This document shows positions 1,270-62,802 of a DNA stretch of 64,000 bases, one piece after another. Made by a program: the position numbers and the translations under genes. The notes under the pieces are model-generated. The model had not been told where the DNA came from and ran no database searches. It saw only the letters and a list, made by a program, of their open reading frames with translations. Source of the stretch: Sipunculus nudus (taxonomy: Eukaryota > Annelida > Sipuncula > Golfingiida > Sipunculidae); the NCBI GenBank assembly GCA_026874595.1, contig CM049307.1, positions 21,305,079 through 21,369,078 on the forward strand, in the 5' to 3' direction. Each line of letters opens with the position of its first letter. Position 1 is the first letter of the stretch.

Positions 1270-2932
1270 ATGAAGATCTGCCTCAGAGGTAGTGTGTATT
1301 TTTACGTTCTTGCCTTGCTCGGCTTGAACATATGGGGAAATGATGCCAGTCAAGAAGAAAATACAGGTATGTTTGTAAACGTTTTCATCCATCCTATTCA
1401 TACTGTAAACAATTCTTTGTGTTCGGTTTGTATTTTTCTTTTGTATTTAAATTAATAAAATTCTTTGTTGGCATCTATATTACAACAAAGGAATTTACAA
1501 GACATACATAGATAAATTAAAGACAAGGCAAATTGTATTTGAAATATCGTACAGGGCGTGTTGCTATTGTCATTATAAGTCGTTATTTTTTTTCTAGGAA
1601 ATGCCAAAATGGAAATTTCAGATCGCATACGTGGGTTTGAAAAATATGTTGGCAGTAACCATCTGGAGGAACTGTTTGACGAGATGTATATGTCAGACTC
1701 TTTCATCATGCCGCCTGCTGAGCAGATGTGCAGGAGCAGGGGTAATGAGACATCTAAATGTTATCCTTTGAATATAATGATGAGGGGTTGCCATGATAAT
1801 TTTCTTTTAGAGAAAACATTTCAGTTTGTTATATTTCCATTTTATTTCCAATTTCAAAAGAAAAACGTTTTTCAAATAAAAGTGAAATGATATATAGAGG
1901 ACTGTACACAATAAAAATATGTTGTATATTTTGTATAAGGACATCACCATAGTAACTGATGGTAACCCCAGTAAACCTTCAAGTACCAATTCGGCATTAT
2001 AATCCTGAAAACAGTTACATGCATAGGATCTATATTTGACAAAAAATACAAAACAAAAGTCGTATCCGTGGTACAATTTATTGAATTTGGTAAAAATGAA
2101 TGCTGTTTTCCTTATCAGCGGGAAAAGACATATCCCACCTCGCCCTCCACGTTTTAAAATATAGTCCTGTAATAATAAACCCGAGAAATATTCAATTGAT
2201 TCAGTTTTTATCAGTGACATTAAACGCTCAAGCTGGAGCACAGCCCACGTTGTACTTACAATAAATTTATCCTTTCTTTCGGTTTGTGCAGGAATCATTC
2301 TAACTTTATACCACAATTACTTATCATATGCTTCACACTGTGCAATACCCCTGTTCACAAGACTATTGACACGCTACGGAAGTTATTTAAAAGACACAAG
2401 TGATGTGATTGAAGTACATGGAAATACGGCACTGCAGTTGTACCATTTTACGGAAGAAAACCTAGATACCGGTGTCACGACGTACGGCAAGTATGTCAGT
2501 CTATTTCAAGTTGTTAAAACTTAACAGGAAGAATGTGGACAACGTTTTGTGCATTAAAGCAGCTAAAAAAAGGCTCCATAAAGGGTTTATTAGCAGTTAT
2601 TACATAAATTTTAATCTTCTTTAGAATAACCTCTTTAATATATCAACTAGATCTTGCAATTTTCGTTTAATATCAATATAATTTGTCAACACGTAAGTCG
2701 GCATGGGATGGCCCAGTAATACCCCGACCACCAAGGAAACGTCTACTTTGAGATGTTCAAACGATGAGGATAATTTAAATAACATTATTGCTCACATATT
2801 TCTTCCATGAGTGCCTGTGGTACTAAGTGACTGTGACTAATCATGCAACCCTTTTATTTGCCTAGGGGCATGGCTATACTGTCGAAGAACCATCTCCAGA
2901 AGTGGATGTATACATACAGTCTGTGGAACTAA
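1270..2932 (+). CDS. Secreted NTF2-like (DUF4440/SnoaL-type) protein, four exons
   Basis: Exons 1270-1366, 1598-1741, 2292-2490 and 2866-2932 join in frame (phases 1,1,2) into 168 codons, with GT donors and AG acceptors throughout. Residues 1-27 form a signal peptide with a VYFYVLALLGLNIWG core. Exon 2 carries the family signature YMSDSFIMPPA (about 63-73), then a Cys in QMCRSRG. Exon 3 has VIEVHGNTALQLYHF, and the last exon ends W-M-Y-T-Y-S-L-W-N. This order matches the helix-loop and beta-sheet layout of NTF2-like DUF4440 domains; the biochemical role is unknown. Oddity: exon 3 is 45 nt longer than in the paralogs at 45082-45235 and 54667-54820, and its first part runs in a different frame relative to their VDR-x-H helix, so the N-terminal half of this exon may be new sequence. 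It is open, but decay in progress is possible. Confidence 0.65.
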
Positions 2933-3836
2933 TATCATGGCGGGGTCTTGAAATCAATGTGAAAATAAACACTCATAAACATATAAATCATTTGTGTATG
3001 TATTACCACGTACTCTCAGTTCTCACAGAAACATAGAGTTAATTTTATTTAGCACAACTACGAAAATCATTCATGCACTGAAGGCTACACGAACATGTAC
3101 AACTCCGTTATTGATTGATGGGACAACCATAACATTGATATTAAAGGTTTATTTCGGCCCTGACCGGAACTCATTTTATACAGATACATTTAGTTAATAT
3201 TGCAATTGAGACAATATCCTTCTTCATGGGAGGCTGCACCGAAACCGATCAAAGATTTTTTCTATAGGCGGGGGGGGGGGGGGGGGGGTAGGAAATTTGG
3301 CAAGTGAAGCTTCACTTCACTTCACTCAGCATCTCTGTAAATAGAAACATCAAATGTCTCATGAAAATATTACAAGGCCATACGTTCCGCTGCCCATGTC
3401 TCCTATTGTGAATTAAATAATGCCACTTGATCAGTCGGGGCATATCAGGCCGGTTCCTACGTACAAAAAAGGGTTTGTAGGCCCAATTCAGTGTAGGTCT
3501 TTGCCATGTCAAGGAATATTGAACAAAATCGCCTGCGTCGGTAAATAAAATGTGCAAGTTAAAGGCATATGTCGGATATATCACTCCTCACTCCTATAAA
3601 CAATTTAAGATTAAATACATGACGATACAATTTACACCAAAGTGTATCCATCAAGATTTTTTTGTTTTAACATTAACAGTACACAAGTACTTTTCCTTCT
3701 GTCTCTCCTTTAGCATGCCCGTTGCAGACATACATATACTGTGCAGGCAAATTTGTATTTAAACCATCATACTAAATCTTATATTCTCTTTTTAAAAGAG
3801 ATCTGAGTTTTGTCAATGGTTCTGGATAAATCTTTT
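2933..3836. other. Spacer between convergent genes
   Basis: No gene seen. It aligns with 9499-10415 in unit B. It contains a 19-base G run at 3270-3288 that unit B reduces to GGGGGGAGG, showing that the homopolymer expanded after the duplication. Confidence 0.6.
3270..3288. repeat. Poly-G tract (19 G)
   Basis: An uninterrupted run of G in an otherwise AT-rich spacer. The unit B counterpart near 9831 has only a short G-rich stretch. Confidence 0.95.
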
Positions 3837-4512
3837 TTAGGGCAGAAAAACATGACCACCATTTCCCCCGAGTATTATGTTGTTCCAGATACTGTATCTC
3901 ATCCGCCATTTATTCATCATTCCCCATATGACCAGACTCCTCGCGAAAAAATGATAAGGTAATTTAAATGTAGCAATACTGTTAATGATCTATAAATTTA
4001 TGTGTATGTATGTAAATATAAAGAGAGAGAAATAGAGAAAGAATGAGAGAGAATACGCCTGATCTAGATCTATGTATTTAAATCTAGAATAATGCTTTTA
4101 CTTTGTAGCCTAACTGAATTATATCCACTGGCATTCTGTCTCAAATGATAACCTGAAGTAAACACATTTACATTGGATCATAACACATCCATATAATTAT
4201 GAAAATAAATATCAAATAAACGAAATAGTGTATATGAACTAATCTAATTCTATCGTGTAAAATCTTTGTCCAGTGATAGCTCAATAGGGATGAAAAAGCT
4301 CAAGTCACATTTAAGTGAATTTGTGAAAATGTGAAAATGACGATACTACAATGTTTACTTGACTTGTGATGTGAGGGTTTGGTCGGATCCTATCTCATCC
4401 AGATGGTTTGTTTGAACGGCTGTCTCTGAATACATGTCGATCCGGTCGCTATGAATACGGATATCTCGGACTCCTGCCTCCATATATCTCTCGTGCAATC
4501 TGTCTACAGATT
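3837..4512 (-). pseudogene. NTF2-like gene fragment: exons 3 and 4 only
   Basis: Read on the minus strand, exon 3 (4512-4359, 154 nt) encodes ESVDRLHERYMEAGVRDIRI then HSDRIDMYSETAVQ and ends TSQV+K in phase 2. Exon 4 (3939-3837) encodes SLVIWGMMNKWRMRYSIWNN and runs on to a stop 10 residues later than in the paralogs. Both splice sites look usable (acceptor TTTCACAG, donor AA|GTAAAC). I found no exon 1 or 2 in 4513-7783. The unit B counterpart has them at 15572-16098, so the duplication broke between exons 2 and 3. Probably a 5'-truncated pseudogene; it could only be expressed from a distant upstream exon. Confidence 0.75.
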
Positions 4513-5019
4513 CTGTGAAACCAAAAGCTTTGAATGCCACTCGTTATTAATATTGTTATTTTGTTTACTGTATGCGGTATATGTGGCCAGAGGCTCAAGC
4601 TTATTATCCCTGCATTCAGAGAATACACATGTAAGAAAAAAAATCCTTAGTACAACTGTGAAAATATTATACAGATATCTTGAACTCATCTTGGCATATG
4701 TTGTTGAGAGACTATTTGCTGCTAGGTAACAGTACATTCTTTTGTGATAGGGTACAGAATTTATATAGACATTACTGTTATCAACAGGAAAATGTTAATG
4801 CAGCAAATGTATACATTGGGTCCACTAATAATTATCTGTTATTCATTATAGCATTTTTTACAAAAAGTAAATTCTTCAAGGAGATATATAGACTGCAAGT
4901 TTGTATCCTTCATGAATGACATGTAAGAATTACTGGGTAACCAAGGTAGAGATTTCATGTACCAAATTGGACTGATTATGTTAATATAATACATTTGTAC
5001 AAATTGTTACCTGTTTTAT
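4513..5019. other. Decayed intron/flank sequence
   Basis: No gene seen. The end (about 4840-5019) is a copy of the 5' flank that also occurs at 18410-18600, leading into the relic exon at 5116. Confidence 0.5.
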
Positions 5020-7783: not shown

Positions 7784-9498
7784 ATGAGGTTCTGCTCCAG
7801 AGGTAGTGTGTCTTTTTACGTTCTTGCTCTGCTCGGCTCGAACATTTGGGGAAATGATGCCAACCAAGAAAATATAGGTATATTTGTTAAACGTATACAT
7901 TCATCTTATTCATTTTATTTACAATTCTTTGCTTGTTTTAAAGTAGGCGATGAAAATTAATTAAATAAGTTATCTGCTTTTTGTTGGCGCTTTTATCACT
8001 GCAAAGGCATTCACAAGACAGACATTTAAATAAAACGCAAATTGTACTTGAAATATTTTACAGCGCGTGTTGAAATTGTCATTAAAGTTTTTATTTTTTT
8101 TTTCTCCCGAGAAAATGCCAAAATGGAAATTTTGGTTGACATGCATGAGTTTGAAAAATATATTCGCAATGACGAACTCTTTGGCGAGTTATTTACGCCG
8201 GATTCCTGCATCATGCCGCCTGGTGAGATGATGTGCAGAAACAAGGGTAATGAGATATTTCAATCTTATCCTTTGAATTTAATGATCAGGGGTTGCCTTG
8301 ATAGTTTTCTTCATGTGAAGGGAAATCTTTTCAGTTTTTTATATTTGCATTTTAATTTCCAATTTTAAAAGAAAAACGTATTTCCGAATAAAAAGGCACC
8401 ATGCTATATTTAGGTTATAAAGATTATGTATATTTTTAATACTGACATGTTCATAGTAACTGCTGGTCATCCCCGATGAACCTTTAAATACAAATTCGGA
8501 ATTATAACCCTGAAATCCGTTACATTAGATTTATATATGAAAAATACAAAATCGTTTCAGTGTTATAGCTGAATGAACATATGGTATAAATAAATGCTGC
8601 TTTCCTGCTAATTGGGTACGGGCAAATCGCTCCTCGCCCTCCATGTAAAATACAGTCCTCTGATAATAAAATCTGAGAATGAATCAGTTGTTTCAAGTTT
8701 AATCAATGACCCTAAACGCTCAAGCGGAAACACAGTCCCGTTTGTTCAAACGATAAATTTTACCCTCTCGGTTTGTGCAGAAATTATTCGACATTAAAAT
8801 CACAATTACTCACCACATGCTTCAGACTGTGTAATACCCCTCTTCAAGTGAATGGTGACACGCTACGGAAGTAATTTAAAGGACACAAGTGATGTAATTG
8901 AAGTACATGGGAATACGGCTCTGCAGTTGTACCATTTTGCCGAAGAAAACCTAGATACCGGTGTCACGACGTACGGCAAGTATGTCAGTCTATTTCAAGT
9001 TGTTAAAACTTAACAGGAAGAATGTGAATAAATAAATGGACAACGCATAGGGTATTTAAGCAGCTACAAAAAGCGTCATAAAGAGTTTATAAGCAGTTAT
9101 AACACAGATTCTAAACTTTATTAGTAACAATTTGTTTAATTTATCAACTTTTTTTCGCATTTTTTTTGTTAAATATTACTTTAAGGTTTCTACACGTAAG
9201 TCGGCATGGTAATGGCAAAGTCATACCCCGACTACCAAGAAAACGTCTATTTTGAGATGTTCAAACGATGACGATACTTGAAATTACATGATTGCTTGCA
9301 ATTTCTTTAACCGTTTCACGATATACATGCATGTAAGGGACAAGGCCCATTCGTCAGGATATAGAATTTACGTATAAGTGCTTGTGGTACTAAGTGACTT
9401 TGACTTATTATGCAACCCTTTTTTTACCTAGGGGCATAGTTATACTATCTAAGAACCATCTCCATAAGTGGATGTGTACATACAGTCTGTGGAACTAA
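7784..9498 (+). pseudogene. NTF2-like gene copy with stops in exon 3
   Basis: Unit B counterpart of the gene at 1270. Exon 1 (7784-7877) encodes a signal peptide with a VSFYVLALLGSNIWG core. Exon 2 (8112-8246) keeps the frame and the motif CIMPPGEMMCRNKG. Exon 3 (8781-8979, same 199-nt length) has an in-frame TAA six codons in, and a later TGA in LFK*MVTRYG. Exon 4 (9432-9498) is intact and ends W-M-C-T-Y-S-L-W-N. Donor and acceptor dinucleotides are all present, so the loss is recent and limited to exon 3. A splice choice that avoids the first part of exon 3 would still have to start after the TGA. Confidence 0.8.
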
Positions 9499-10415: not shown

Positions 10416-10473
10416 TCATCTTATGTTGTTCCAGATAGTGTATCTTATCCTCCATTTATCAATCATCCCCCAT

Positions 10474-11964: not shown

Positions 11965-12609
11965 ACTCCTGTCGAAAAAAATAAGGAAATTTTAATGTAC
12001 CACTACTGTTAATGGTATATATAAATTTATGTATTTATGTGTAATATATATATATATATACATATATACAAATATATATTTATATTGAGAGAGATGGAGA
12101 AAGAGAGAAAAAGAGAGAATACGCATGATCTTTGTATTTAAATCTAGAATAATGCTTTTATTTTGTAGCCTTACTGTATTGTATCCACTGGTATAAATTG
12201 ATGACCTGAAGTATACACATTTGCATTGGATCATAACACATTCATATAATAATAAAAATAAATATCAAATAAACGAAATAGTTAAATGAACTAATCTAAT
12301 TCTGTCGTGTAAAAATCTTTGTCCAGTGATGGTTAAATAGGGCATCGAAAAGCTCAAGTCACATTAAAGTTGTTATGGAGATGACGATACTACAATGTAT
12401 ACTTGCCTTGTGACGTAAGGGTTTGGTCGGATCCTATCTCATCCAGGTGGTTAACTTGAACGGTTATCTCGGAATACATCTCGATCCAGTCGCTATGAAT
12501 ACGGATACCTCTGACTCCTGTCGCCATATATCTCTCGTGCATTCTGTCTACAGCTTCAGTGAAAGCAAAACCTTTGAATGTCACACATTCTTAATATTGT
12601 TATTTTATT

Positions 12610-13680
12610 AGCTGTTTGTGGTATATGTGGCCAGAGGCTCAAGCTTATCACTCCTTGCATTCATAGAATTCACATATTTGATTAAATCCTTTGGTACAGC
12701 AGTTAAATCATTGATTTCTTGACATATTGACATAGTTTGTTGAAACGTTATTTGCTGCCAGGTTACAGAATATATTTTTAACATTACTGGTATATTGATA
12801 AAGATGTTTATATTCTGTTCAGAAGCACTGCATGGAAAGGGATGGACAACTGCTGTGCATATAAAGATGGACAAGGACTGCCCGAATAGCTTTGTTCCAA
12901 ATACAAAAATACCAAAACAGCCGTCAGAGTCTTGCTGGATCGAAGTGATGTGACTCTAAGTCCAATACCGGTCTTTGAATATAAGTTAAAAGTAAACAAA
13001 ATCAAATAAAATCCCAGGTTCAACTGTGAACAAAATACACGGGTGTGTTAAACGTATCTGAACATATGTGGTTGATAGAGTATTTACATTCAGTTTACAG
13101 AATTTATGTAAACGGTATTGTTTTCTAAATGAAGATGTTTAAACCCTGTTAAGAAGCAATACATGTATGTGTATGACCTGATTCCTCTTGTGTAGTAACA
13201 CATATATGAGCTGTGGACTCATTTTCAGTTTGACAAAGTAATGTAGGTTCCCCTTGTTATGATACAGTCACCAGCAATTTATAGAGCTTCATGTGTTCAA
13301 AGCTGCAGTGACAACTGATGAACATGTAATTATGGACAGGAAATGCCCAAATTATCTTGTGGCGAATACTACAGAAAAAAAAGCTGTCAAGGTGTCCTGG
13401 AGGGAGGCGATGTGACCCCAAAAGTGACACCATTAGATCCGTTACTGCCAAGTTTAAATAGTTACCTCATTAAGTCTTCGAAAATAAGGTCAAAGTCAAA
13501 AATAAATATCAAGCGCAAATAGGTAGCTATACTGCCCATAATCGTACTGACAGGACTAAGACTCTGCTAGTTAAGGATATTGTGTAAAGACCCCCCTCCC
13601 CCTCCCCACCAGTACCCCACCATTACCCCATCCCGAGCTAACACTAAAGAAATAATGCCCCCTCCACACATACACACACA
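12610..13680. other. Intron sequence without recognisable genes
   Basis: Lies inside the large intron of the - strand pseudogene. Two loosely similar segments (about 12840-13010 and 13300-13500) share TGGACA-GGA--GCCC-AAT, an AGTC-TG-TGGA block and a GATGTGAC block, so an old local duplication is likely. A CA/CCCCT-rich patch lies at 13590-13680. Confidence 0.45.
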
Positions 13681-15123: not shown

Positions 15124-16098
15124 ACACACACACACACACACACAAACACATTGTTTCGACAAGTTGTCCCGGCCTCCAACCATCCCTAACTGAAAGGGGT
15201 TTGTTTAAAAAAACGACCTCTGACGGAATGCTGATCTGTCACCTGCGGTTATTACTCTGCCTAAAGGGCATTTTGAAATATCAGCGGTATTGGATATTTG
15301 ACACAAATACAGACAGCAAAAGAAAAACAGAGACAAAGTATAAAAAAATAAATATTTAACACTCAGGGGAATCCAAGAAAGCCCAAACCCCGCAACACAC
15401 CACATAAATCTGGATGCAAATATCGACATAAAACGTAATGCCCCTCAAAGCCGCATAATTAGTGTTGGTGAACATTAAAGAATCGGTGACCCTTACACTC
15501 ATACAGTCTCCCAACGATACCATTTTTACAGCAGTGCAATTTAATAAGCGTTTGTTTAGACGTTTGCTCACCTCTTCCCTGACAGATATTCTGCCCGGAG
15601 GCATAGACACGGTATCAGAAGTGTAAGTCTGGGCGAACATAGCATCCAGATTGTGGCTGTCATACAGGTTAACAAGGGTCTTCATCTGCGACAGAATCAG
15701 CCTATTGTTATCTTAAATGGAAACAACAGTAAATGACCTCATTTTTAAGAGTTTATATGAAACGTATCGGTCTTCAATTGTGGATAATAGCAAATAGCAC
15801 GTTAAATCAAATTTTTGCAACAACAAGTCGATACGCTTGGCCGAACATTACTTTAACGCTATTAAGACCTCACTTTCTTTGATCTAAGATTATGCATCGA
15901 CACGATATAATTAAGTTTTAAACAGAGATATTCCTCTGTTGGTGCTAGGCCCCACATGAAACTTCAGCAACTGTAATATGATATTTTGTCAGGGAAACAT
16001 AACCCACCTTTTTCACCCAAAGGAGATTCTGCGCTGATTAAATTGTAGATTGTCAGAATGGCTTGTAAGACCAGGGCTGCGTCACGTGTCTTCGTCAT

Positions 16099-18409: not shown

Positions 18410-19140
18410 TTATTCATTTAAGTATCTTTTGAAAATAAGTAAATTATTCAAAGAGATATATAGACTGCTAGTTTATTTTTTATGAATGAAATATAAGAAT
18501 TCCTGGGAAAACCAAAATAGAGATTTCGTATACCATATAGGGCTGAATATTTTTATATAATACATTTGCACAAATTGACACATTTTTCTTGTGACTGTGA
18601 TATTTCCACACAACCATCTTTATTCTACCAGCCTTCGAATATTCGAAAACTGTTTTGTTCATATAAACATCGAATGGGATTAAATAATGAGGTTCTGAAC
18701 CAGGGTTACTGTGTACTTATACATTCTGGGCTCGAACATTTATTTGGGGAAATGGAATCAACCAAACAATATAGGTAAATTAAACGTGTCATACAGCCTA
18801 TTCAATCTGTTTAAAAATTCCCTGTTTTTGGTTTGGTATGTTTTTAACATATGCAGTTCGAAGTAGATGTATTCCCCCGTGTTAACTGTCTCAACTATAC
18901 ACAACTGCAAAGGTAATCACAAGACACGAATTAATTAAATAAAACACAATTTGTAATATTGTATAATTTTGGTGAATTAATTTTTTTTTCATTAAAATCG
19001 TGTTTTTCCTAAGGAAATACAAAAAAAAACTGAAATTTAAAATGCAAGTTACACATATGCCTTTCGGTTTTTACACGGTTTGATAACACAGACATGATAT
19101 TTGCTGATATTTGGAAGTCAGATTTCATGAAAATTAAATG
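18410..19140 (+). pseudogene. Third decayed 5' end of the NTF2-like gene (promoter, exon 1, exon 2 relic)
   Basis: The conserved ACCAGCC--CGAATATTCGAA block (about 18628) is followed by exon 1 at 18687-18774, which ends in an intact donor (ATAG|GTAAAT). Its fourth codon is TGA where the copy at 7784 has TGC, so the signal peptide is not encoded. At 19014 a degraded exon 2 follows a TTTTTCCTAAG acceptor, with the start of the paralog exon still recognisable in sequence but full of indels. No exons 3 or 4 were found. This is the remains of a third tandem unit. Confidence 0.65.
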
Positions 19141-20057: not shown

Positions 20058-20727
20058 CTGTTGTTACGGAACCTAATATAAACAGATCACGTATGCGTGA
20101 TGAACACAAATTTTGTAATGGAGATAAAAACAAATCAGATTCTGTAACAGGTTTTTTGTTAACAAATAACTATAATTTATTCTTAAAACAACCCTAACAA
20201 TACAATACACTAAATCAATACAATTATACAGTAAAAAAGCGGTATAGTAAAAAGTCAATACAATCACATAAAAAAATAATGTGCACAGTACCTGTATACC
20301 AACACCATCACTACGATAAGTCCTTTAAATGTAAACTCTCGGAGAATGACAGTCCAGTGGAAAGTAAACTGAAGTCCAAATGCATAAAATCCAGGAGAAA
20401 GTCTTTGAAAATCTATAATTGCCGCATTAGTCAGATAAGGTCCTAGAATCTGACACACGCTTCTGCGTCCGCTGGAATCTGTCTATAAGATCTTGCACAA
20501 CACAGACTACACGCGTTTTAGGAATTCTTCAGAAAAACAGCGCTGTGTATCTCCACACACCAGGCTCATCACGTGACCCACGACCTAGCGTAAAAACCCA
20601 AGGCTAAACATGACAACGAATTCAACCAGTACGGATTAAACATATATTGTGATACGCGGCCAGACACGAGTGCCACAACAGGAGTTACGCCCGTGTCACA
20701 TAATAAAAAGAACACCTGTAACACTGT
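20058..20727 (-). mobile_element. Solo LTR 1
   Basis: 20062-20723 begins TGTTACGGAACC and ends ACCTGTAACA, flanked by a perfect 4-bp target duplication CTGT (20058-20061 and 20724-20727). It is the same family as 58558-59281. It splits the gypsy pol frame between the pre-RT and RT segments. Orientation is taken from its match to solo LTR 3, whose TATA box reads on the minus strand. Confidence 0.85.
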
Positions 20728-21188: not shown

Positions 21189-22019
21189 GGATTGTTACAT
21201 ATATCTGTTTATCTCTGTTTGCATTGCTTGACATGTGTCTGGCGTTCTGATTCTTGTTAAGCGCAAGCCCTGTGCCATGCTATGGGAACCGCACTTGTTG
21301 AACTATGGCTTACCCGCAGAGTGTAAGACACAGCGTGTTCGTTGAAGTGTAAAAGGTTCGTGTTTGTTCTTTGGAATGTCCCGGACTAGAAGCTTCTGGA
21401 CTTCGGGGGGAAAAGCTATAAATAGGGGCTGTGTTTGGAGCTGGCAGAAAGGAAAATACCACCGGACACTAAAGGGTGGGACTTTCTCATCAGTCTTGGG
21501 ACCTAATCCGATAATTGCATAGTAACAGATTTTCTATGGACTTTATACATAATTTATACAGATTTTATATATATTGTCTTCAGTTTGTCTTTGGGATTTT
21601 ACCCGAACTTCATTTCTGAATTACAACAGCTTGTCTTCCAGATTTAATTGGACTATTCACTGGGAAGATTTACTTGACTGTTTACTTGGATTATTTGTGC
21701 TAAAACACTCTTGTTGGACTGTGACAGTTATGGTATCCAGAAATCAAGGCCTAGGATCCGGACTCTGTTGATTTACATTTTTATTATTGTTATGTCTTAA
21801 ATACTGTGTAATTGTATTGATTTAGTGTATTGTAATGTTAGGATTGTTCTAAGTATAAATTATAATTATTTGTAAACAAAAAAAAACACTAACTTCTTTT
21901 TTCCCCTAGACATTTCACGCTGCCTAGTGTTGCGGAATCTAATTGTTTTTGTCTCCGTAACAAGGGTTTGTGCTCGTCATGATATCGTAATCTGTTATTA
22001 TAAGGTTCCGTAACAGGAT
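21189..22019 (+). mobile_element. Solo LTR 2
   Basis: 21193-22015 begins TGTTACATAT and ends TTCCGTAACA, flanked by a perfect 4-bp duplication GGAT (21189-21192, 22016-22019). Its 3' end is the reverse complement of the start of solo LTRs 1 and 3, so it lies in the opposite direction and is a more diverged family member. A TATA box (CTATAAATAGGGGC, 21416-21429) gives the transcription direction as +. It interrupts the gypsy RT between the ILVTGKTNEEHLNNLKKC part and the KIKAIVDA part. Confidence 0.85.
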
Positions 22020-30102: not shown

Positions 30103-31868
30103 ATGAATGCGCCAGGCCTTTGCTTGCTTTCCCTTGGAGTCTTGATCGGAACGGCCAGTGGTGAGTTGGCAAAATTTGGGCTAGATCCGAAGAAAGGGAT
30201 GTCGCGTCACTACTTGTACCAAATTAATGAATAATTGTGTATATTTCTTTATATTTTCGTCATAAAGTCTTCGGTCGAATTTGTAATAGTATATATATAT
30301 ATATATAAAATATATATATAATATTTGGCCAATCCGTGATTCGTACCCACGTCGGTGGCGCAATGTCCGGCGTTCCAACTGTTCGCTGGAAAATTAAATT
30401 TCACTAGCGAGACAGTTCGGTCCGATTTAATGTCAACCCGAAACAATATATATATATATATATGTGCGTGTGTGTGTGTGTGCTCATATATTGTAGGTAG
30501 ACATTAAGAGTGACTACTTTTAGATAAACTAACTTATTTATTAACTATATAAAACGCGTCATTCGTACCCTTTTACTTTACATCTTTTATTATATTTAAA
30601 AAACGGTCAACAGTCTGAAACTGAGGACAGTATAATGCCTTTTTAATTCATCAGAACTAAAATTCAATTCTTAAATGTTGATAGCCCTCCTCTTTTTCAT
30701 TTTAAGCTTTCTCATATATTTCCTATAAAAGCATATATGTAGGTTTTATGTAGGTTTTATATTGTCTTCTAATTCATACGTAACGAAATATCTGGCATGA
30801 GCTATGGTCAAACTACTTAACACAATGTCATCAAATATCATAATGTGTTAATTTATCACGTTATATAAAGCTGAGTTATCCAAGGTTCAAGGGATGTTGG
30901 ATATTTGGAAATCCGAGGTCAAAAATAAAGATGCTGAACAGCTCGTAAAAGATCTGTATATGTCAAGAACCTTCATCATGCCGCCAGGACTACCCTTACT
31001 GACGGCCAGAGGTAATAGTGTCCTTTTCAAGCAAAATAACCGAGAGCCATTAAAGGTATCATATATTCTATAACTAATCGCTCGACATTCAATAGGCATT
31101 TAAAACCTGATAGTATACCTGTAGTCTTGAATGGCCCCTATATAAATTATATTGACTCGAAAGCTCCCATTACATACTTTAATAATATATTAAATCAAGT
31201 CCAAACAATGCAGTTTTGATGTCCTTTCTTGGGACATTTTTGGCGACTTGCTGATATTGAGTTTTCTGTCTTATTTGATCTGAAGACGATATCATACAAA
31301 TGCGAAGATACATAAAGAAGCAAAAGGCCAAGGCTAGCTTCGGCGAATATGACACCCATGTATATGGTGGCATCGTCATTATGGAGCAGTCTTATCGTGA
31401 AGAGAACGCTGACAAGACGTACTCCAATTCCGGAATGTAGGATACCGATATAATTGTTTCATTTAGATTCATTTATTGTTATCTTTATTTTGGTAGATAA
31501 TGAATGCGGTAAAATTGGTGCATTTAATGGATGACGATAGCGCTGAAATAAGATTCCTTTGTTATCATAACCAGAACTGTCACTCTGTATTTTAAATCCT
31601 TTTTTAGAACTGTATAAAGAGGGCGCTAATGGTTTCTTATAATCATCACCCGCGATAAGTTTTTTTGTAATTGCTGGAAGTAATATATGGAGATTATAGA
31701 AAATAATGTTGTTTTCTAAAAAGTTTATAGGATGGCTCTTGAAAATAACTTTTTTCAGTCCAAGTAATTTAAACTAATAAGGACCAGTTTTTCCACAGGT
31801 GTATCTTCATCTGGAAGCAGGACCCGGACACCGGAAAGTATAAGATCATCTATAATATTTGGAACTGA
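30103..31868 (+). CDS. Secreted NTF2-like (DUF4440/SnoaL-type) protein, four exons, intact
   Basis: Exons 30103-30160, 30871-31011, 31286-31436 and 31799-31868 join in phases 1,1,2 into 139 codons plus stop. Residues 1-19 (MNAPGLCLLSLGVLIGTAS) are a signal peptide. Exon 2 has the helix AEQLVKDLYMSRTFIMPPG (about 41-59) and ends LLTAR. Exon 3 gives IIQMRRYIKKQKAKASFGE then YGGIVIMEQSYREENADK, the central strands of the fold. Exon 4 (CIFIWKQDPDTGKYKIIYNI then WN) supplies the last two strands, as in DUF4440 proteins. The length suits one domain plus signal peptide. Function is unknown; secretion is predicted. It represents a second subgroup, with exon 4 C-I-F-I-W, shared with the loci at 32502, 47183 and 59550. 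Intron 1 holds a reversed SINE-like piece and (TA)n. Confidence 0.85.
30324..30425 (-). mobile_element. SINE-like fragment
   Basis: On the minus strand the sequence CAGTTGGAACGCCGGACATT followed by GGGTACGAATCACGG resembles the D-arm to T-arm region of a tRNA with a B-box-like GGTACGAATC. (TA)n tracts flank it. Partial and without a cloverleaf. Confidence 0.4.
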
Positions 31869-32501: not shown

Positions 32502-32871
32502 ATGAATGCTTCAGGACTATGTTTGCTCCTTTTAATTCAGACTGGAACGGCCAACGGTAGGTTTGCAAAATAGGGATCGATCCCGAGGAAGGATTGTCCC
32601 GGTACTTCTTCAGCAATATTATTAAATAATTGAATTGAATTATGCTTGCTTCTTTATTGTCGGTTAGAAAATGTTTTTAGTCCGCTTTGTAAAATTGTAA
32701 ATATTTTATTACGGCTCTTGACAAAGACATTTGCAAGAATAATGTAATGTCATGTTCAGGTGTATTGCCATTGTTGGTTAATGTTTAATTCATCCAAAAT
32801 GAAATCATTTATAGTTAACCTGATAAATTAGATAAAATATATACTTTTACCTTTCTGCTGGACCGATCCCT

Positions 32872-33959: not shown

Positions 33960-34020
33960 ATGAATCCAGCAGACGTTTTGCTATTCATGGGAATCGTTTT
34001 CATTGGAGCGTCCAGGGATG
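33960..34020 (+). pseudogene. Relic exon 1 of the NTF2-like family
   Basis: Encodes MNPADVLLFMGIVFIGASR, in register with the signal peptides at 30103 and 59550. The donor position reads AGGGATGAGTGG where the paralog has GTGGTGAGTTGG, so the GT is mutated to AT. It is a decayed or alternative first exon for the locus ending at 39214. Confidence 0.6.
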
Positions 34021-36722: not shown

Positions 36723-36862
36723 CTGAAACATTCCAGTTTCAAGACCTATTGGACGAATTTACATATAATTTCAACACAAAAGATGCTGCTCTATTCGTGA
36801 AAGATCTCTACATGACTGTAGCCTACAGCATGCCTCCGAACCAACCTCTGTTGACAACCAGA

Positions 36863-38044
36863 GTTAGTGGCAAAATTTGTTTCATTTTCACTACCTAGGA
36901 TAAGTTCTTTTTCTTTTGCTCCTTATAGGTTACCCTACCACTTTTTTAGTTGTAGTTAGATTCATATTTGTGTGAAAACCATTCGAAATTGTCACGTCTT
37001 CAGTGTTTTCCGAGGGATTCATTTTCACGATTTACCACACGGTAACTTGCACAATGTACATAACAATTATTAGATGAGTTTCCTAATATGTACGCAAAAC
37101 TCAACTGCACACAGATCAAAGAAAACATCAAACAAGTGGTTAATCCTCATTCAATAGAGGCAAATATACAAAAGTATCGGTATTATTTATATTATCAACT
37201 TTGAATTACGGGTATCATAAAATGTATGCTAATATTGATGCTACCAGCACCATATACATCAGATGCCATTAAAAACTATAAAATAAATAACTGTTCACCT
37301 GTGCAGTTGAGGCGTTTTGTTCTTTTATTCACGATGGCTTTATCTTCGCGACAGTTTCCCCCGTCGCGAATATCGCAAATTTGAAACCCTCGCAAAAAGA
37401 AAGGTAATCGCAGTATTTGGCAGTCCAGTAGAGTCATCTCGAGCACTGAAGAAATAGCCGCCGGCCGAAATTTTGAAATTAATTTCAATGGTCAATACTG
37501 CTTTTGGTGTTTTGGGATCGACGAATGCATATATGATGCCAATAATATTTGATCTATTTAGACCTTAAAGTCTAAGATGGCTACTAATGTTTAGCTCAGA
37601 AAGGCTACTAAATTTATTGTACAACTTTCACAATGGGTTTATGCGTTGCTTTCTGTTTAATAAAATTGACATATATAAATATGAATTTGACCCCTAAACC
37701 TTAGAATCAGAATATCGACTAGTAATATAAGACAACCCATTGTAAAATATTCAAAATGGTGGAGGCGGCCAAACTGAATTTTTGAATTTTGGGAAGGACA
37801 CCAAAAATTAAATCTATGCTGAACACGGTTACGGAAATGCACCAGATCACCCAATAACGATGCAGTAGTGAGATGAAGCTCGGATTACACTTGCGTTCTC
37901 AGAAGGGGAGAAAATCTGTCACCTTTAATGTTATGATACTAATAATAACGGAGCTAGGTAGACGTTCTGTATTCAATTTTGAAAGAATCCTTTAGATATG
38001 CACAGCCAAACATTTCAAAACTTTTTAAAATTTTTTTTCTTAAG
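36863..38044. other. Intron 2 of the pseudogene at 32502
   Basis: No gene or repeat recognised. Confidence 0.4.
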
Positions 38045-38208
38045 ATGATATCATACAAATGCTCAGAGACTTCCAGAAGCAAAATGCTAAGAACACATTC
38101 GCCGAAAATACCATCCGTGTGTTTGGGGACCTCATCATAATGGAACAGAAATATTGAATCCAGAATACTGATAAGTCAATCTCAGATAAAGGAAAGTAAG
38201 ACACTTTT

Positions 38209-38935: not shown

Positions 38936-39214
38936 AAAAAATAAAAATAATAATAACAGTGGCGGTTATTGTTGGATAGACTGCTGTGGTAGGAGTGGCA
39001 GAGTAATAGTCTCTGTTGTAGTTATTGTAAATGAGTTTGCTTCTTTTCACTTTTCACTTATTTTCACTCATTTTACTCATGTATTTTTGTAAGAATCGAT
39101 TTATTTAATATATTATGTAATAAAAGAATGAACTTTGTCCACAGCTGTATCTTCATCTGGGAGAAGGATCCGGAGAGCGGAAAATACAAGATCATCTATA
39201 ACATTTGGAACTGA

Positions 39215-43276: not shown

Positions 43277-43343
43277 ATGTATCTTTATCTGGAAGAATCC
43301 GGACGGCATAAAGTACAAGATCATCTATAATATTTGGAACTGA
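43277..43343 (+). pseudogene. Orphan last exon of the NTF2-like family
   Basis: After a good acceptor (TTTTTTCTACAG) the exon encodes CIFIWKNPDGIKYKIIYNIW, N and a stop, in the same phase 2 as exon 4 at 31799 and 39145. No further family exon was found between 39214 and 43277. It is either a relic or an alternative last exon of the locus ending at 39214. Confidence 0.7.
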
Positions 43344-44014: not shown

Positions 44015-44096
44015 AGAATTACTGAGAATCCGGGAGTACACCCCGCCGTGTTCTTTGCGTTTTTCCTTTTCATTAGCGCAGAACCTTCCATGGAAA
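44015..44096 (+). pseudogene. Relic exon 1 without start codon
   Basis: Encodes the paralogous AVFFAFFLFISAEPSME but the ATG is replaced (ACTGAGAATCCGGGAG against ATGATCGGGAGACC at 53722). The donor (GGAAA|GTAAAA) is intact. It belongs to the truncated direct copy at 43600-44410. Confidence 0.7.
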
Positions 44097-44837: not shown

Positions 44838-45395
44838 TTAGTTGTTGTTCCATAGACTGTACCTGATTCGCCACTCCTTCACTGGATTAGTCATTTTCCA
44901 AACGATCATGCCTCTGAAGTAAAAATCTGCTTTTAAGTGAAGATGTAGAGGGTTTGAAGTAATTTGCGTATAACTGATGAGAAATTACACACGGCGTAAA
45001 AATACTAATATAAAAATCAAACTGGGATGTAACATTAAGCGGATATCAAAACTATCGAATACGTAAGGTAAGCATATATACTTTGCGAGTTGTTTGATGT
45101 TATCGTGAGGCCCAGTCTCTTCCGCATGGTGTATCTGAACTGCTAGATTTCCATGGACTTCGATCCAATCGCTATGGAGATACACATCTCGGATCCCTCT
45201 GTCCATGTACCTCTGATGCATCCTGTCAACAGCTTCTGTAGCGTCACATGTTGATATGATGTATTATTTCCCTTTGGAATGTTATATCATTAGTATCCAC
45301 TAAATAACGTAAAACAACAAGTATAACGCTAAATGTACTCACATTTATACATATATATATATATATATATATATTTCTTATTATTATGTGTAATT

Positions 45396-45439: not shown

Positions 45440-46032
45440 AAAATATATAACCACGAAACACAAAAATTTACCCCTTCCTCTACAGTAAGACTCTCCTGGC
45501 GGCATGACATCGGTGTCAGGTATAAAAATATGGCTAAATATGCTATCCGGATCCTGTTTGTTGTAAAGGTCCATAAGGGTCTTCATCTGCATTGCGATAC
45601 GTTTCTTATTCTCTGCAATAGGGAAATCATTTAATCAATCAAATATACATGATCTATATTCAAAGAACATTTATTTTTCATATACCCCTTATACACCCAG
45701 TTTAGTGGTATATGAAATATAAAACTATTTATATTGCAAGTCGAATAATGATGAAAAGTTCTCAAATTATGTTAAGACATATGAAATTTACTTTTATATA
45801 AATATTAGCGAATTTAGCATTTCTTTTAATTGTTCGCTTCGAAATGTACTTTGCTTCTCAGTCCTGTTTGAAAATTTCATATTTAAACATAAATATGTAG
45901 GTCCTGTACACGTTTGAAGTAATTAGTGTAACGACTGCAAGATCACATTTTACTTTCAACAGAAGATTCTCCACTAATGAGCAGGAACAACGCAAAGAAC
46001 ACGGCGAAGTGTACTCCCAGCCTCCCGGTCAT
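44838..46032 (-). CDS. Secreted NTF2-like (DUF4440/SnoaL-type) protein, four exons, intact
   Basis: Minus-strand exons 46032-45954, 45612-45472, 45235-45082 and 44913-44838 join in phases 1,1,2 into 149 codons plus stop. The signal peptide is MTGRLGVHFAVFFALFLLIS. Exon 2 runs KNKKRIAMQMKTLMDLYNKQ to DTDVMPPG (MPPG at 63-66) and SYCRGRG. Exon 3 has AVDRMHQRYMDRGIRDVYLH, SDWIEVHGNLAVQIHH and EETGPHDNIKQLAK. Exon 4 is GMIVWKMTNPVKEWRIRYSL, WNNN. All splice sites are canonical. It is the closest paralog of the gene at 53719 and lies in the opposite arm of an inverted duplication. Intron 2 holds two (TA)n tracts (45352-45375, 45397-45437). Secretion is predicted; the ligand or enzymatic role is unknown. 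Confidence 0.88.
45352..45437. repeat. Two (TA)n tracts in intron 2
   Basis: Interrupted by TTTCTTATTATTATGTGTAA. The inverted paralog has a single (TA)n at 54495-54553 in the same intron. Confidence 0.9.
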
Positions 46033-47182: not shown

Positions 47183-47465
47183 CAGAAGTTTTCGAGTTAA
47201 AACAGCTCATGGAGATGTTCACACACGCCTACGACTATGAAGATGCTGAACTGCTGGTGAATGATTTCTACATGTCGAAGCCTTTCATCCTCCCACCGGG
47301 CCATCCTTTACTGACAAACAGAGGTGGGGTTGACAGCTGAATTCAAAAATTAATTATTACTGTTACGTGTAAAAAACTATAATTTTTCTACAGGTGCGCA
47401 TCTTCATCTGGATGAAGGACCCAATTAAGGGAACGTACAAGGTAATTTATAATATATGGTTTTGA
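47183..47465 (+). pseudogene. NTF2-like gene remnant: exons 2 and 4
   Basis: Exon 2 (47183-47323) is fully open: VFELKQLMEMFTHAYDYEDA, then LLVNDFYMSKPFILPPGHPL and LTNR, with a good acceptor and donor. Exon 4 follows only 70 bases later (47394-47465) and ends YKVIYNIWF, but carries two extra bases (GTGCGCATC against GTGCATC) that break its phase. Exon 3, which in the duplicate at 61048 lies about 520 bases downstream of exon 2, is deleted, and no exon 1 was found. Confidence 0.75.
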
Positions 47466-53330: not shown

Positions 53331-53331
<1 letters not shown>

Positions 53332-53718: not shown

Positions 53719-54492
53719 ATGATGATCGGGAGACCTAGAGTACACCTCGCCGTGTTCTTTGCGTTGTTCCTGCTCGTTAGCGGAGAAACTTCAATGGATA
53801 GAAGTATAATGTTTATCAAAATGTGATCTTGAATTCGCTTCACTGATTACTTCAAACTTGTACAGAATCGACGGACTCATGTGTAATTATGAAATTGTCA
53901 AACAATACTAAGTAATAATTTTAATTTCGAAGCTAACAATCTTCCGCAAGCAGATATCGCTAATATTTAGACCAAATGTAATTTAAATTTGGACAATGGC
54001 TTAACACAAATACCACTCCGGGTTGTGTGATGTATTAGTGGTATCTGAAAAATAAATCCTGTTTGAAAATAGATCATGTATATTAATTTTGGGTAAAGAA
54101 TATATCTATTGCAGAGAATAAGAAGCGGATCTTAATGCAAATGAAGACTCTAATGGACTTTTACAACAATCAGGATCCGGATGGCATATTTAGCCATGTT
54201 TTCAGACCTGACACCGATGTTATGCCACCCGGAGAATCTTTCTGTAAAGGAAGGGGTAAATTTCTCGTGTTGCGTGGTTTTATCTTAATTATATCATAGT
54301 TCACGTTATATTTAGAATATGAAATATAAGATTTTAGTAAGATTATTTCTACTTTGCTATACGTTTGTAGTCTGTCAGAAATAAACATTTGCTGGCTTAA
54401 TGATTCAATAATTTACTTGTTTTTACTAATTCCGCAGACTGACTTGTGATCTCACTTAACTCTGAAAAAGGAACCGGCTTTTTACAATTTTG

Positions 54493-54554
<62 letters not shown>

Positions 54555-55069
54555 GTGTGTTTGTATCTAGCGTAATACTTTTATTGTTTTACATTATGTA
54601 ATGAATATTAAAGATAAAACACCATCATAGAAAATAAGACTTATATATCAACATATGACGTCACAGAAGCTGTTGACAGGATGCATCAGGGGTACATGGA
54701 GAGAGGGATCCGAGATGTGTATCTCCATAGCGACGGGATCGAAATCCATGGAAACCTAGCAGTTCAGATACACCACCTGGAAGAGACTGGGTCTCACGAT
54801 AATATCAAACAACTCGCAAAGTACATATGCGTATCTTAAGTATACAAAAGTTTTGATATCCACAACATTTTTGTATTGTAGTTTGATTTTATATTAGTAA
54901 TTTTACGCCGTGGATAATATTTACATCAGTTATATGTAAAATACTTCAAATCCACTGAATTTCCACCTAAAGCAACATATCATTTTCCTTCAGAGGCATG
55001 TTCGTTTGGAAAATGACTCGTTCAGTTAAAGAGTGGCGAATCAGATACAGTCTGTGGAACAACAACTGA
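53719..55069 (+). CDS. Secreted NTF2-like (DUF4440/SnoaL-type) protein, four exons, intact
   Basis: Exons 53719-53803, 54115-54255, 54667-54820 and 54994-55069 join in phases 1,1,2 into 151 codons plus stop. The first of two adjacent ATGs is used; the second (53722) is also plausible. The signal peptide is MMIGRPRVHLAVFFALFLLV. Exon 2 has KNKKRILMQMKTLMDFYNNQ and DTDVMPPG (MPPG 65-68), then SFCKGRG. Exon 3 gives AVDRMHQGYMERGIRDVYLH, SDGIEIHGNLAVQIHHLEE; exon 4 ends MTRSVKEWRIRYSLWNNN. Exon lengths 2-4 equal those of the paralog at 44838 exactly (141, 154, 76), with amino-acid changes spread lightly. All splice sites are canonical. NTF2-like fold inferred from PPG, HGN-x-A-x-Q and W-R-I-R-Y-S-L-W order; no catalytic residue can be assigned. 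Confidence 0.88.
54495..54553. repeat. (TA)n in intron 2
   Basis: About 29 TA units, at the same intron position as 45352-45437 in the inverted paralog. Confidence 0.95.
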
Positions 55070-58500: not shown

Positions 58501-58553
58501 ATTAAACTATAACTTTGTAAAATCACAAATTAATGTTAATTATTTCAGAACTT
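55501..58553. other. Gene-free stretch with an unclassified GC-richer block
   Basis: No gene recognised. 56160-57260 is more GC-rich than its surroundings and looks like an old inserted repeat, but I could not find its ends. The rest (57300-58550) is AT-rich with an A run at 58387-58402. Confidence 0.4.
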
Positions 58554-59285
58554 GTAATGTTACGGAACCTAATATAAACAGATCACGTAGCATGATGAAC
58601 ACAAATTCTGTAACGGAGATAAAAAAAATCAGATTCTGTAACACTAGGCAGCGTGAAATGTCTAGGGGAATGAATAAAGAAGTCAGTGGTTTTTTGTTAA
58701 CAAATAATTATAATTTATTCTTAAAACAACCCTTACATTACAATACACTAAATCAATACAATTATACAGTAAAACAGCGGTATAAGAACAAATCAATACA
58801 ATCATAGAGAAAAATAATGTGCACAGTACCTGGATACCAACACCGTCACAACGATAAGTTCTTGAAATGTATACTCTCGGAGAATGACAGTCCAGTGTAA
58901 AGCTCTTGTAACAATCCAGAAAGTAAACTGAAGTCCAAAAGAGTCACACGCTTCTGCGTGCGCTCGAATCTTCTCTACTCTCTGCCCCCGGTTCTTAAAC
59001 ACAACCCCTTTATATACTCTTCACCCCAAGCCGAGAATTTTCCACTTCTAGAAGATTCGAAGAATAATACATTATACACGGTAAGCATGCGTCACAGGAA
59101 TTCTCCAGGAAAACAGCGCTGTGTGTATCTCTACATACCAGGGTCATCACGTGACCTCGGCCAGGCGTGAAAACCCAAGGCAAGCATGACAATGAGAGTT
59201 TAACCAGTACGGATTAAACATAAAGTGCAACAACAACACGAGTTACGCCCGTGTCACACAATAAAAAGAGCACCTGTAACAGTAA
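58554..59285 (-). mobile_element. Solo LTR 3
   Basis: 58558-59281 begins TGTTACGGAACC and ends ACCTGTAACA, flanked by a perfect 4-bp duplication GTAA (58554-58557, 59282-59285). On the minus strand it has a TATA box (TATATAAAGGGG, around 59005-59016) and the ends TGTTACAGGTG...GTAACA. It is the closest relative of solo LTR 1 (20062-20723). No internal retroelement region adjoins it. Confidence 0.9.
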
Positions 59286-59549: not shown

Positions 59550-59726
59550 ATGAATGCGTTGTGCCTTTTGTGTTTGCTGGGGCTCGTTCTGATAGGAACG
59601 TCAAGCAGTGAGTGTTGAAAAAAGGATGGAGGGAGGGGTTTATGGAGGATTGTTTAGATGGGCGCAACATGCTATTGATACTGTAGTGCTCATTTGTATT
59701 ATGATGTACAAATTCTTATTTACTCT

Positions 59727-59775
59727 GGGGCCTGGACAGTCGAGTGGTTAAACGCTTGGCGCTATCTACTGACAT
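59727..59775 (+). mobile_element. tRNA-like SINE head, fragment
   Basis: GGGGCCTGGACAGTCGAGTG then GTTAAACGCTTGGCG resembles a tRNA 5' half with an A box; the B-box half is absent. It lies in intron 1 of the pseudogene at 59550. Confidence 0.4.
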
Positions 59776-61065
59776 TGTGCAATATATGAAATATGAAGTA
59801 ATCTATCTTTATTTATGTGGTAAACTATAGCCATTTATTATTTAAAAATCCCTTTTTTGAAAAGCAAGAAAAGATAAGATAATTAGGACGTTTCGATATA
59901 CTAAATATAATTTCTTAATTAAAAAAATCTATAAACAATACAAACAGTTGAAGGCCAAAATATGTACCACAAATTTTTTTAAAAGCAATACTGTCTTGTA
60001 TTCAAGCGCCCAAAATCTGCCTATAAATTGTCATCTGTGAGAGGGGGCAGCACCTCTGAGCCCCCCATCCCCGGTTCACGACTGTGTCACGTTGCGCCAT
60101 CTCCCCCTTATGGTTATTGCGTTTGGACTTCATTTATACAAACAATAATAAGGACAAGCAGAGGCCCAGGTAATTTAATTCAGACCCCTCTTTAACTGGC
60201 AGTGGAGTCGTGGTTCATAGATTATTCCCACTTGACGTTATGAAAATAATACTTTGGAGTTCGCAGACTTATTTATTATTAAATTAAAAAGGGGGCATTA
60301 TATAAATCCATGAACGGACGGTATGGAAGATTCCATTTATCAGATGGCGGGTAAAATCATCTTTCGTTCCACTTAATTTGTTTCAGCTGAATCGTTTGAA
60401 TTTAAACAGCTCATGGAGACGTTTACATACGCGTTCGACCATGAAGATGCTGAAGTACTGATGAATGATTTCTAAATGTCAAACCCCTTCATCCTCCCAC
60501 CGGGCCATCCTTTACTGACAAACAGAGGTGGGGTTGATAGCACCTCTAAATGTTATATGTACGGCGGTTCAAAAGTTCATTCTTATTCCATTCCTGAACA
60601 GCTGAAAGTCATAATCATGTAAGTTTCGAGCCGTAAGGTGAACTAAAGTAGTCTTCTAGGTAGCTCTAATTCAAATGTAATATTTATATATTTGTATTAT
60701 GTATTAAAACTCTTGATACGTGCCTTTTATTACCAAGGAAATCCATTGCTTTATTTTAAGAATAGTCCTAACAATGTTTGTTGTAGAGGCTAGCCCAATG
60801 ACGTTTCCATAGTAACAGAACTATACAGTTGACCCACGCAATATAAAAACAAGTGTTTTAATTTTTTATGACATGACCTATACTGATATTTGAAAAACAT
60901 ATCTCAGCGTGAAAGCAGAGTTTAAGAGTCATTCAGCATCAACTTCTTAGGATATCAACATGATCTGTACAACCTAAAGTGACTCAAATTTATGTAGTCT
61001 TTAAAGGTTTCAACAGGATAAAACTGACTGTTTTTCTTTGTCTTAAGATTCTATAATAACAATGA

Positions 61066-61171
61066 TCAGAGAACAAAAGCCTAAGGAACTCCTCGGCAAA
61101 ACAAGCATCAGTCTGTACTCAGAGAACAAAAGCCTAAGGAACTCCTCGGCAAAACAAGCATCAGTCTGTAC
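61066..61171. repeat. 53-bp exact tandem duplication in an exon
   Basis: TCAGAGAACAAAAGCCTAAG onward is repeated without a visible mismatch. It lies wholly within exon 3 of the pseudogene at 59550 and causes its frameshift. Confidence 0.95.
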
Positions 61172-62802
61172 GGAAGTATAGTAATCACTGAGCAGTCGTA
61201 TCATGACGAGAACGCAGATGGGAGTTTCTCTGAGCCTCGAAAGTGAGACACCCTGTTATTTCTACCAGTTTTTCTATTTTTAAAGATTACCGAAAACATT
61301 GTTGTTTGTAGATGAAGTAGCAAATTAATTATGTTTACTGTTTCCCGGAGGAAAACTCGCAAATTTTTCAAAACATAATCTGTAAGATACTGTTATTATC
61401 GTTATCATTATGGTTAATATTCTTTATATGTTATTATAATCATTACTAACACTTTATGCTTTAGAATAAGATTTGTCGTCGTTTAAGTTGTAGTGGGCTA
61501 AGAACTTATATATACAATATTCATCATAGCTGCATAAAATTGATTTTCATAGTTAAACCAAGAAAATCCCACACTCATAAATATGAAATATTCCAATCAT
61601 TCCCATCATAAAACTTTGAAGATAAGGCGCTCATTGTTTGAGTATGTATCGATTTAATCCACATTTTAAAGAATAATCACTTCTATTTTTCCACAGGTGC
61701 ATCTTTATCTGGATGAAGGACCTAGTTAATGGAATGTATAAGATAAATTATAATATATGGTATTGATACATGTTTATTCATGAGCATGACAACATAATAT
61801 ATGTGGAATAAATACTATGTTGAATATTATTTAGCTTTCCATGTCTGACCATGATATCTCAGATAAGATATGATGTAGTGTGTTTAGTGGAATACAGTTT
61901 CAGTTTATGTCCTGGCTCACGGCCACGCGCCAAAAGGTCTGGCATAAAGGTTCTTTTAACCTGAGCGAATTTCGTCTCACTAAAAGGCAGTACATCACAC
62001 ACAAAAGCAAAACAACTACTGTTTACTTGTCTCCTTGACTTCCAAAATATAAGTACATTTTCGGGAAGTAATCGCCTTACATATTAAGGAGACACCACAA
62101 GCTTGTAGGTGTTCCAGGGGTTTTATGGGCAGGAATGTGACAAGGATTTTCTTGGGTGTTCTAATTATAAAACATTAAATTGAATATTTTTATAGATTAT
62201 TTCATACACGTATACAAAGCTAACTTTGAATACATTCCATGTATTAGATCAGGTACAACAAACAAGGCAACATAATGCAGTCTAAACGCGTATCGTGTTA
62301 TAGTGAATTATGTTGGTAGATATCAACAGTAACTGAATTTTTAACGGCACGGCTCATAATCCGGATTCTATTGTAATTTAAACCTTGATACCTTCCTCTC
62401 ATTCTGCTCTAAGTTGTCGATAAATCGTGGCGGTAAGGATTCAAGTTTTCTGAGGATTAAAGCTCTAGAGCTTTCAGGAGATAAAAGTAAACAATGCTAT
62501 GCAAATGGTGACTTAAAGCATATTGTAATTTGGGAAATGGTTTTATATTTGTTTGTCAATCTTGCGCACGGGTTCAGATGATAATAATTACGAACATAAA
62601 GCAATCACGCATACATGCGGGATATATAATTTAGGGTCTCAACATTATATATTCGTACACGTGTGCAGGAAGATCAGACCGCAATACCCAATTACCGTAT
62701 TATATATCAAACTATATAATTAATGCGTCGGGCGTTTGGTTTCTAATGGAAATCTTTATTATTAATAATAAAGTTGCAGCTTTCTTGTTCACTTTGAAAG
62801 CC

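Follow-up and report, generated by a model that had tools for sequence, protein, structure and literature searches.

A Mostly Decayed Gene Cluster in Sipunculus nudus as a Probable Outlier of a Large Family of Putative Secreted NTF2-like Proteins

What kind of protein is encoded by the repeated short exons in one 64,000-nucleotide stretch of the genome of the sipunculan Sipunculus nudus, and do any of the copies look like working genes? The stretch, hereafter the window, is contig CM049307.1 of GenBank assembly GCA_026874595.1 from position 21,305,079 to 21,369,078 (C2:21305079-21369078), in a genome of 1.43 Gb on 153 contigs. An initial annotation, made from the letters of the window, had described a birth-and-death cluster of genes for secreted NTF2-like proteins. 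We find that the window is probably a small, mostly decayed outlier of a large family whose members combine a leader with a single NTF2-like domain and would bind ligands. This judgment applies to the statement as a whole and is weighted to its observed parts, namely the gene plan, the leader, the family, the turnover of copies, and past constraint.

Eleven family loci (L1–L11) were located on both strands. Ten are multi-exon (L1, L2, L3, L4, L5, L6, L8, L9, L10, and L11), and L7 is a lone exon 4. L1 and L2 on the plus strand and L3 and L4 on the minus strand lie within the first 16 kb, whereas L5, L6, L7, L9, and L11 are distributed on the plus strand across 30–62 kb. L8 (minus) and L10 (plus) form an inverted pair at 44.8–46.0 and 53.7–55.1 kb. 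Duplication has been of two kinds, tandem (L1/L2 with L3/L4) and inverted (L8/L10). Exons 1 and 2 of L3 were not found in the profile scans of the window. Three additional lone exon 1 relics at 18687, 32502, and 44030 scored 7.6, 10.7, and 31.4 bits, respectively; the shuffle baseline covers exons 2, 3, and 4, and the exon 1 scores stand without such a control. Where the initial annotation had counted at least eight multi-exon loci, ten were found, and its six single relic exons are replaced by one exon 4 and three copies of exon 1.

The window was searched by tblastn with five peptide seeds drawn from its own open frames. Copies of exon 2 were returned at 1609, 45586 (minus strand), and 54129 with E values of 2e-10, 6e-8, and 2e-7, respectively, and copies of exon 3 at 8852, 45173 (minus strand), and 54729 with E values of 3e-28, 3e-6, and 5e-6. 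Copies of exon 4 were returned at 39146, 43278, and 61698 (E 2e-12 to 2e-7). A scan with exon profiles gave 9 copies of exon 2, 9 of exon 3, and 11 of exon 4. Ten shuffles that preserved local composition peaked at 10.0, 7.9, and 8.2 bits, respectively, and these scores were exceeded by 9/9, 9/9, and 9/11 copies. Seven exon 3 copies scored 41–85 bits and two relics scored 22.9 and 15.0 bits; all copies of exons 2–4 reached at least 15.0 bits except exon 4 in L3 and L4, both relics. The latter gave 7.8 and 7.0 bits (9.0 and 11.6 bits in another profile scan), within the shuffle range, and were called because they are positioned behind exon 3 and resemble one another. A match to exon 4 at 13142, with a score of 6.5 bits, was discarded. 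Since most exons seeded the profiles, the profile scores are partly high by construction; the exons outside the seeds are the relics of exon 3 in L6 and L11 and of exon 4 in L3 and L4. Independent support for the predicted copies is provided by the seed-to-copy tblastn matches and the conserved splice phases. The cluster is real, in that seeds and profiles both recover its copies, and its proposed ends at 1270 and 61766 hold: the flanks (9,999 and 10,000 bases beside the window) contained no match to exons 2, 3, or 4 above 12, 12, and 9 bits, respectively, in a scan that left exon 1 aside.

The complete four-exon plan with phases 1-1-2 and GT-AG at each junction, as first described, is present in L5, L8, and L10, whose spliced open products are 139, 149, and 151 residues in length, each with a hydrophobic leader at the start. 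Exon 1 encodes this leader, exon 2 ends with PPG and G-R, exon 3 provides the middle, and exon 4 is a short end with W-K...W-x-I-x-Y-x-x-W-N. In line with the secretion that had been proposed, a signal-peptide-like exon 1, hydrophobic and with a phase-1 donor, is found in L1, L2, L5, L8, L10, and L11; these calls were made by eye with a hydrophobicity count, without a control. Homologous splice sites give an open frame in three of the eleven loci; another seven are broken or truncated, and L1 is doubtful, being open only via a non-homologous acceptor 70 nt upstream while the homologous acceptor gives a frame shift. Four open loci had been claimed, and L1 is the one in doubt. The lesions, scored by eye from exon and splice-site sequences, are stops with a frame shift (L2), missing acceptors and an out-of-phase donor (L4), lost donors with a stop (L6), the loss of an entire exon (L9), and a stop with a local tandem duplication (L11), as located in Table 1. 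They are distinct between copies, as had been stated, except that part of the change in exon 3 is apparently common to L1 and L2; their description as young fits in part, with synonymous divergence (dS) of about 0.2–0.35 between pairs. Clustered copies, some intact under constraint and others decayed, conform to the birth-and-death pattern.

The family was assigned using the Pfam model DUF4440 (PF14534), for which the curated cut-off is 25.2 bits. L8, L10, and L5 scored 17.7, 22.0, and 12.9 bits, respectively, all below the cut-off, and L1 gave no Pfam match. DUF4440 was the sole Pfam family for L8 and L10 at E ≤ 1. Three of five paralogs on contig C12 exceeded the cut-off (L035, 26.3; L036, 25.5; L041, 30.0 bits) and two fell below it (L038, 19.2; L034, 17.9 bits). 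In the window and C12 members the match spans nearly the whole domain. SnoaL_2 also matched four of these six proteins (L5, L035, L036, L038, L034, and L041), in each case below its own cut-off. When L8 alone was compared with solved structures, 3hx8 was the best match (1.4e-4) among seven sequences to E 10, three of them unrelated by name. A profile of eight members matched 3hx8 at 5e-12 over positions 6–121 of 123, together with the designed proteins 5ien, 5iep, and 5ieo (8e-7 to 1.6e-5), and no other solved structure up to E 0.01. We take all four structures to carry the NTF2-like fold. The NTF2-like (DUF4440) assignment proposed initially is thus supported for the family by profile and by the C12 paralogs, with the window proteins themselves below the cut-off.

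The fold and the family are already known. Relative to PF14534, the members described here, below the cut-off in the window, come from four-exon genes in which the domain is the only one and follows a signal-peptide-like exon, with about 100 gene-like groups in one genome. They resemble 3hx8 over nearly the full domain, but the animal proteins carry an extra N-terminal leader and no conserved catalytic residue was found in the family. The residues P65, G66, G102, W130, W146, and N147 (L8 numbering) are invariant in the eight unbroken members. Across 19 members including relics, one P and one W occur in 18/18 sequences covering those columns, and the other columns at 75% or more are P, G, G, G, W, N, K, Y, Y, D, I, and M.

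The family extends well beyond the window. Run against the whole genome, the DUF4440 model gave a single match, which is on a small contig; the window returned none, since such a search takes each exon separately. With L8 as the query, 25 matches were found, some inside the window and the others on C12, at 5.94–5.99, 6.54–6.55, 12.26–12.32, 19.99–20.56, and 45.14–45.17 Mb. L5 gave 12 matches; those beyond the window are at C2:20.51 Mb. L035 from C12 gave at least 120 matches (150 of 303 candidates were scored). When strand, the order of exons, and spacing are used to join them, these form at least 75 gene-like groups: among the matches listed, 68 are on C12, 3 on C9, and one each on C4, C6, C10, and C15. 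The main array holds at least 61 groups in 1.1 Mb (C12:19484364-20586588). Exons 2 and 3 are both present in 39 of the 75 groups among the matches listed, and the groups are not a gene count because a one-exon group could be either a relic or a piece of a gene whose introns are long. L041 gave 19 matches, with new places at C12:45.14-45.29 and C4:36.08-36.09 Mb. Totalled by hand over the L035, L8, L5, and L041 queries, the groups number about 100, a figure that includes relics and single exons. With at least 75 further groups, at least 61 of them in the C12 array, the window is therefore regarded as a mostly decayed outlier.

The exon plan of the window genes is also present on C12. Open exon 2 and 3 pieces were found in four of four C12 array loci chosen among the 61 groups, a figure that is not like-for-like with the window. 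A candidate hydrophobic phase-1 exon 1 lies upstream of all eight C12 genes scanned (L027, L034, L035, L036, L037, L038, L039, and L040), in a scan that lists other frames as well and has no control; the candidates of L038 and L039 are near copies. An unrooted tree gave support of 29–63 among the L1/L2, L5, and C12 subfamilies, and their branching order is left unclaimed for this reason. A single animal origin of the subfamilies is argued from the shared exon plan, since the tree does not show one. L012, L013, L014, and L016 (C12, about 19.99, 20.21, 20.33, and 20.57 Mb) have nearly identical exon 2 and 3 peptides, each with an equal-scoring family member 10–22 kb further on, which suggests recent block duplication inside the C12 array. 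An uninterrupted frame of 147 residues, L001 (G000:C131:5823-6119), scores 37.7 bits against DUF4440, above the cut-off; its 67.9 kb contig is possibly a bacterial contaminant of the assembly.

What might such proteins do? Bacterial relatives with the NTF2-like fold bind or convert small molecules. The mature protein here would be a single NTF2-like (DUF4440) domain of about 120 residues, released from its signal peptide, exported, and acting outside the cell. Its pocket may bind a small ligand with no conserved catalytic set, and changes in the ligands, which could be microbial, dietary, or signalling molecules, may drive the turnover of copies. The results speak neither for nor against the defence, mucus, and shell-matrix roles suggested initially. 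A further proposal, which we regard as doubtful, is that the approximately 100 secreted NTF2-fold places constitute a diversified extracellular system for the recognition or scavenging of small molecules. This would resemble in role the arrays of lipocalins or odorant-binding proteins, from which the fold differs. We know of no use of the NTF2-like fold for lipocalin-like recognition in animals.

The members could instead be secreted enzymes similar to ketosteroid isomerase, dehydratase, or epoxide hydrolase, with a substrate of its own for each paralog. The fold serves many small enzymes, and the closest solved relative, 3hx8, is named a putative ketosteroid isomerase. In addition, the NCBIfam model for an SgcJ/EcaC oxidoreductase matched L10 and L8 weakly (17.7 and 15.7 bits; cut-off 33.95), and L5 and L035 matched no NCBIfam model. 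Ketosteroid isomerase, as an enzyme, conserves a catalytic Tyr and Asp. However, no acidic residue, Tyr, or His is invariant in either the eight unbroken members or the 19 aligned members, where family members alone were aligned, and the name of 3hx8 is itself qualified as putative. Enzymatic function is judged to be unlikely.

A structural role in a matrix secreted as mucus, cuticle, shell, or egg coat, in place of ligand binding, is less likely still. Large tandem families of small secreted proteins are common in matrices. A DUF4440 domain is listed in a report on the skeletal proteome of one coralline sponge (PMC4633127). However, the sponge protein also carries an IG domain and is predicted to have a membrane helix, which is another architecture, and the open products from the window are non-repetitive and keep one globular domain.

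It remains to ask whether any copy in the window has been maintained by selection, a test that the initial annotation had set for the open loci. For L8 against L10, the nonsynonymous divergence (dN) was determined to be 0.084 and dS 0.309, for a dN/dS of 0.27 over 151 codon columns, and dN was equal to or larger than dS in 0/1000 bootstraps. The exons of this pair are 84–93% identical and the introns 72–78%. L8 and L10 have been under past purifying selection. Thirteen further comparisons were made, for which p is uncorrected. L5 was compared with L047, a copy on C2 that is 0.8 Mb from the window; exons 2 and 3 gave a dN/dS of 0.41 (p 0.02; 11/500 bootstraps; 96 codons), and exon 4 had zero differences over 20 codons. 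Constraint on L5 is less strongly shown than that on L8 and L10. The exon 4 of L5 gave 0.13 against L6 (p 0.015) and 0.26 against L7 (p 0.11). The values for L9 against L11 and for exon 3 of L3 against L4 were 0.43 (p 0.08) and 0.51 (p 0.22), respectively. For L1 against L2, the values were 0.63 (p 0.27) for exons 1 and 2 together, 0.48 (p 0.26) for exon 1, 0.42 (p 0.32) for exon 4, and 0.10 (p 0.006, one of the 13 uncorrected comparisons) for the core of exon 3. L2 was rejected as an ordinary working gene, and L1 is doubtful, with no significant constraint on exon 2 (0.68, p 0.58). Exon 3 of the two seems to have been constrained after their split, which is at odds with both being relics. On C12, the pair L035/L036 gave 0.10 (p 7e-16, with dS > 1) and exon 3 of L041/L044 gave 0.07 (p 0.02). 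That the whole window cluster is dead, with eleven pseudogenes and a constraint on L8 and L10 that ended recently, is improbable: broken or truncated copies make up seven of the eleven, L1 is doubtful, and L5 has less usual splice sites (exon 2 acceptor AAAG, exon 3 donor AT|GTAGGA), but L5, L8, and L10 retain four exons, GT-AG junctions, and open frames, and neutral drift to a dS of 0.31 should have left stops or shifts in the approximately 450 coding bases of each.

Several results weigh against the account of the window as an outlier of a secreted, ligand-binding NTF2-like family. The DUF4440 cut-off is reached by none of the four window proteins. In the unrooted tree, 3hx8 stands beside the L5-type clade (support 63). 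L047, the partner in the L5 comparison, is seemingly broken at its exon 4 acceptor. Pairwise dN/dS records past constraint and says nothing of present activity. Ligand binding without catalysis, argued entirely from the fold and the missing catalytic conservation, is a plausible reading that we hold somewhat short of probable.

Other features of the window were also observed. A tandem array at 40635–41722 has a 158-base unit (312-base dimer) in 6.9 copies. The bivalve satellite BIV160, of which one report gives 9 monomers within 1426 bp (PMC5139131), is similar to it by unit length only. Two overlapping open frames (23721–24755 and 24692–25756) occupy 23721–25759. The first scored 26.2 bits against zf-C17orf113 (cut-off 29.5) and 18.8 bits against DUF659 (cut-off 34.7), both below cut-off, and four further long open frames, 24692–25756 among them, had no Pfam match. 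The two overlapping frames may represent a hAT-like transposase. In the genome, the molluscan haemocyanin domain PF14830 gave 0 matches, and it gave none in the control genomes either. A dispersed repeat in both orientations with 91–93% identity (20150–20364, 21802–21883, and 58688–58902) is possibly a mobile element. The exon coordinates are collected in Table 1.

Table 1. Positions of family exons and exon relics within the window.
Locus	Exon	Position	Strand	Remark
L1	1	1270..1366	+	signal-peptide-like, MKICLRGSVYFYVLALLGLNIWG...
L1	2	1598..1741	+	PPA replaces PPG
L1	3	2362..2490	+	by homologous acceptor, frame-shifted; open only with start at 2292
L1	4	2866..2932	+	
L3	4	3882..3914	-	match core; weak score, backed by position
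L3	3	4358..4513	-	ends approximate
L2	1	7784..7877	+	signal-peptide-like
L2	2	8112..8247	+	
L2	3	8849..8979	+	frame broken
L2	4	9432..9498	+	
L4	4	10428..10457	-	core of relic, weakly scored; expected acceptor lacks AG
L4	3	12399..12557	-	no AG at expected acceptor
L4	2	15569..15685	-	out-of-phase donor
	1	18687..18765	+	lone relic, L1/L2 type, weak
L5	1	30103..30160	+	signal-peptide-like, MNAPGLCLLSLGVLIGTAS
L5	2	30871..31011	+	
L5	3	31286..31436	+	
L5	4	31799..31868	+	
	1	32502..32552	+	lone relic, L5 type
L6	1	33960..34016	+	relic; donor lost
L6	2	36749..36865	+	PPN for PPG; donor GT lost
L6	3	38045..38196	+	internal stop
L6	4	39146..39214	+	
L7	4	43278..43343	+	lone exon
	1	44030..44095	+	lone relic, L8/L10 type, within inverted copy of L8 DNA
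L8	4	44838..44913	-	
L8	3	45082..45235	-	
L8	2	45472..45612	-	
L8	1	45954..46032	-	signal-peptide-like
L9	2	47209..47325	+	match core
L9	4	47400..47465	+	about 75 bp past exon 2; no exon 3 between
L10	1	53719..53803	+	signal-peptide-like
L10	2	54115..54255	+	
L10	3	54667..54820	+	
L10	4	54994..55069	+	
L11	1	59550..59607	+	signal-peptide-like
L11	2	60387..60527	+	internal TAA
L11	3	61122..61240	+	region with local tandem duplication, ends approximate
L11	4	61697..61766	+	

DUF4440 proteins have been reported from other animals. In a study of the Anisakis larval proteome, a DUF4440 protein is small (13.7 kDa) and abundant (PMC7407331), and DUF4440 proteins are listed for Parascaris extracellular vesicles in another (PMC11468347). 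These ascarid proteins are likened to the present ones by description, and homology is not established because the DUF4440 label in Anisakis also covers SXP/RAL-2 proteins. In the literature searched, of which the coverage was partial, no description was found of an animal DUF4440/NTF2-like gene expansion of such scale. If expressed, the genes would encode small secreted animal proteins of a large family for which we found no description. With its open copies, its relics, and an inverted pair whose frames are open, the window is a compact resource for dating the turnover of this family, and the C12 array provides the material for testing what the family recognizes.

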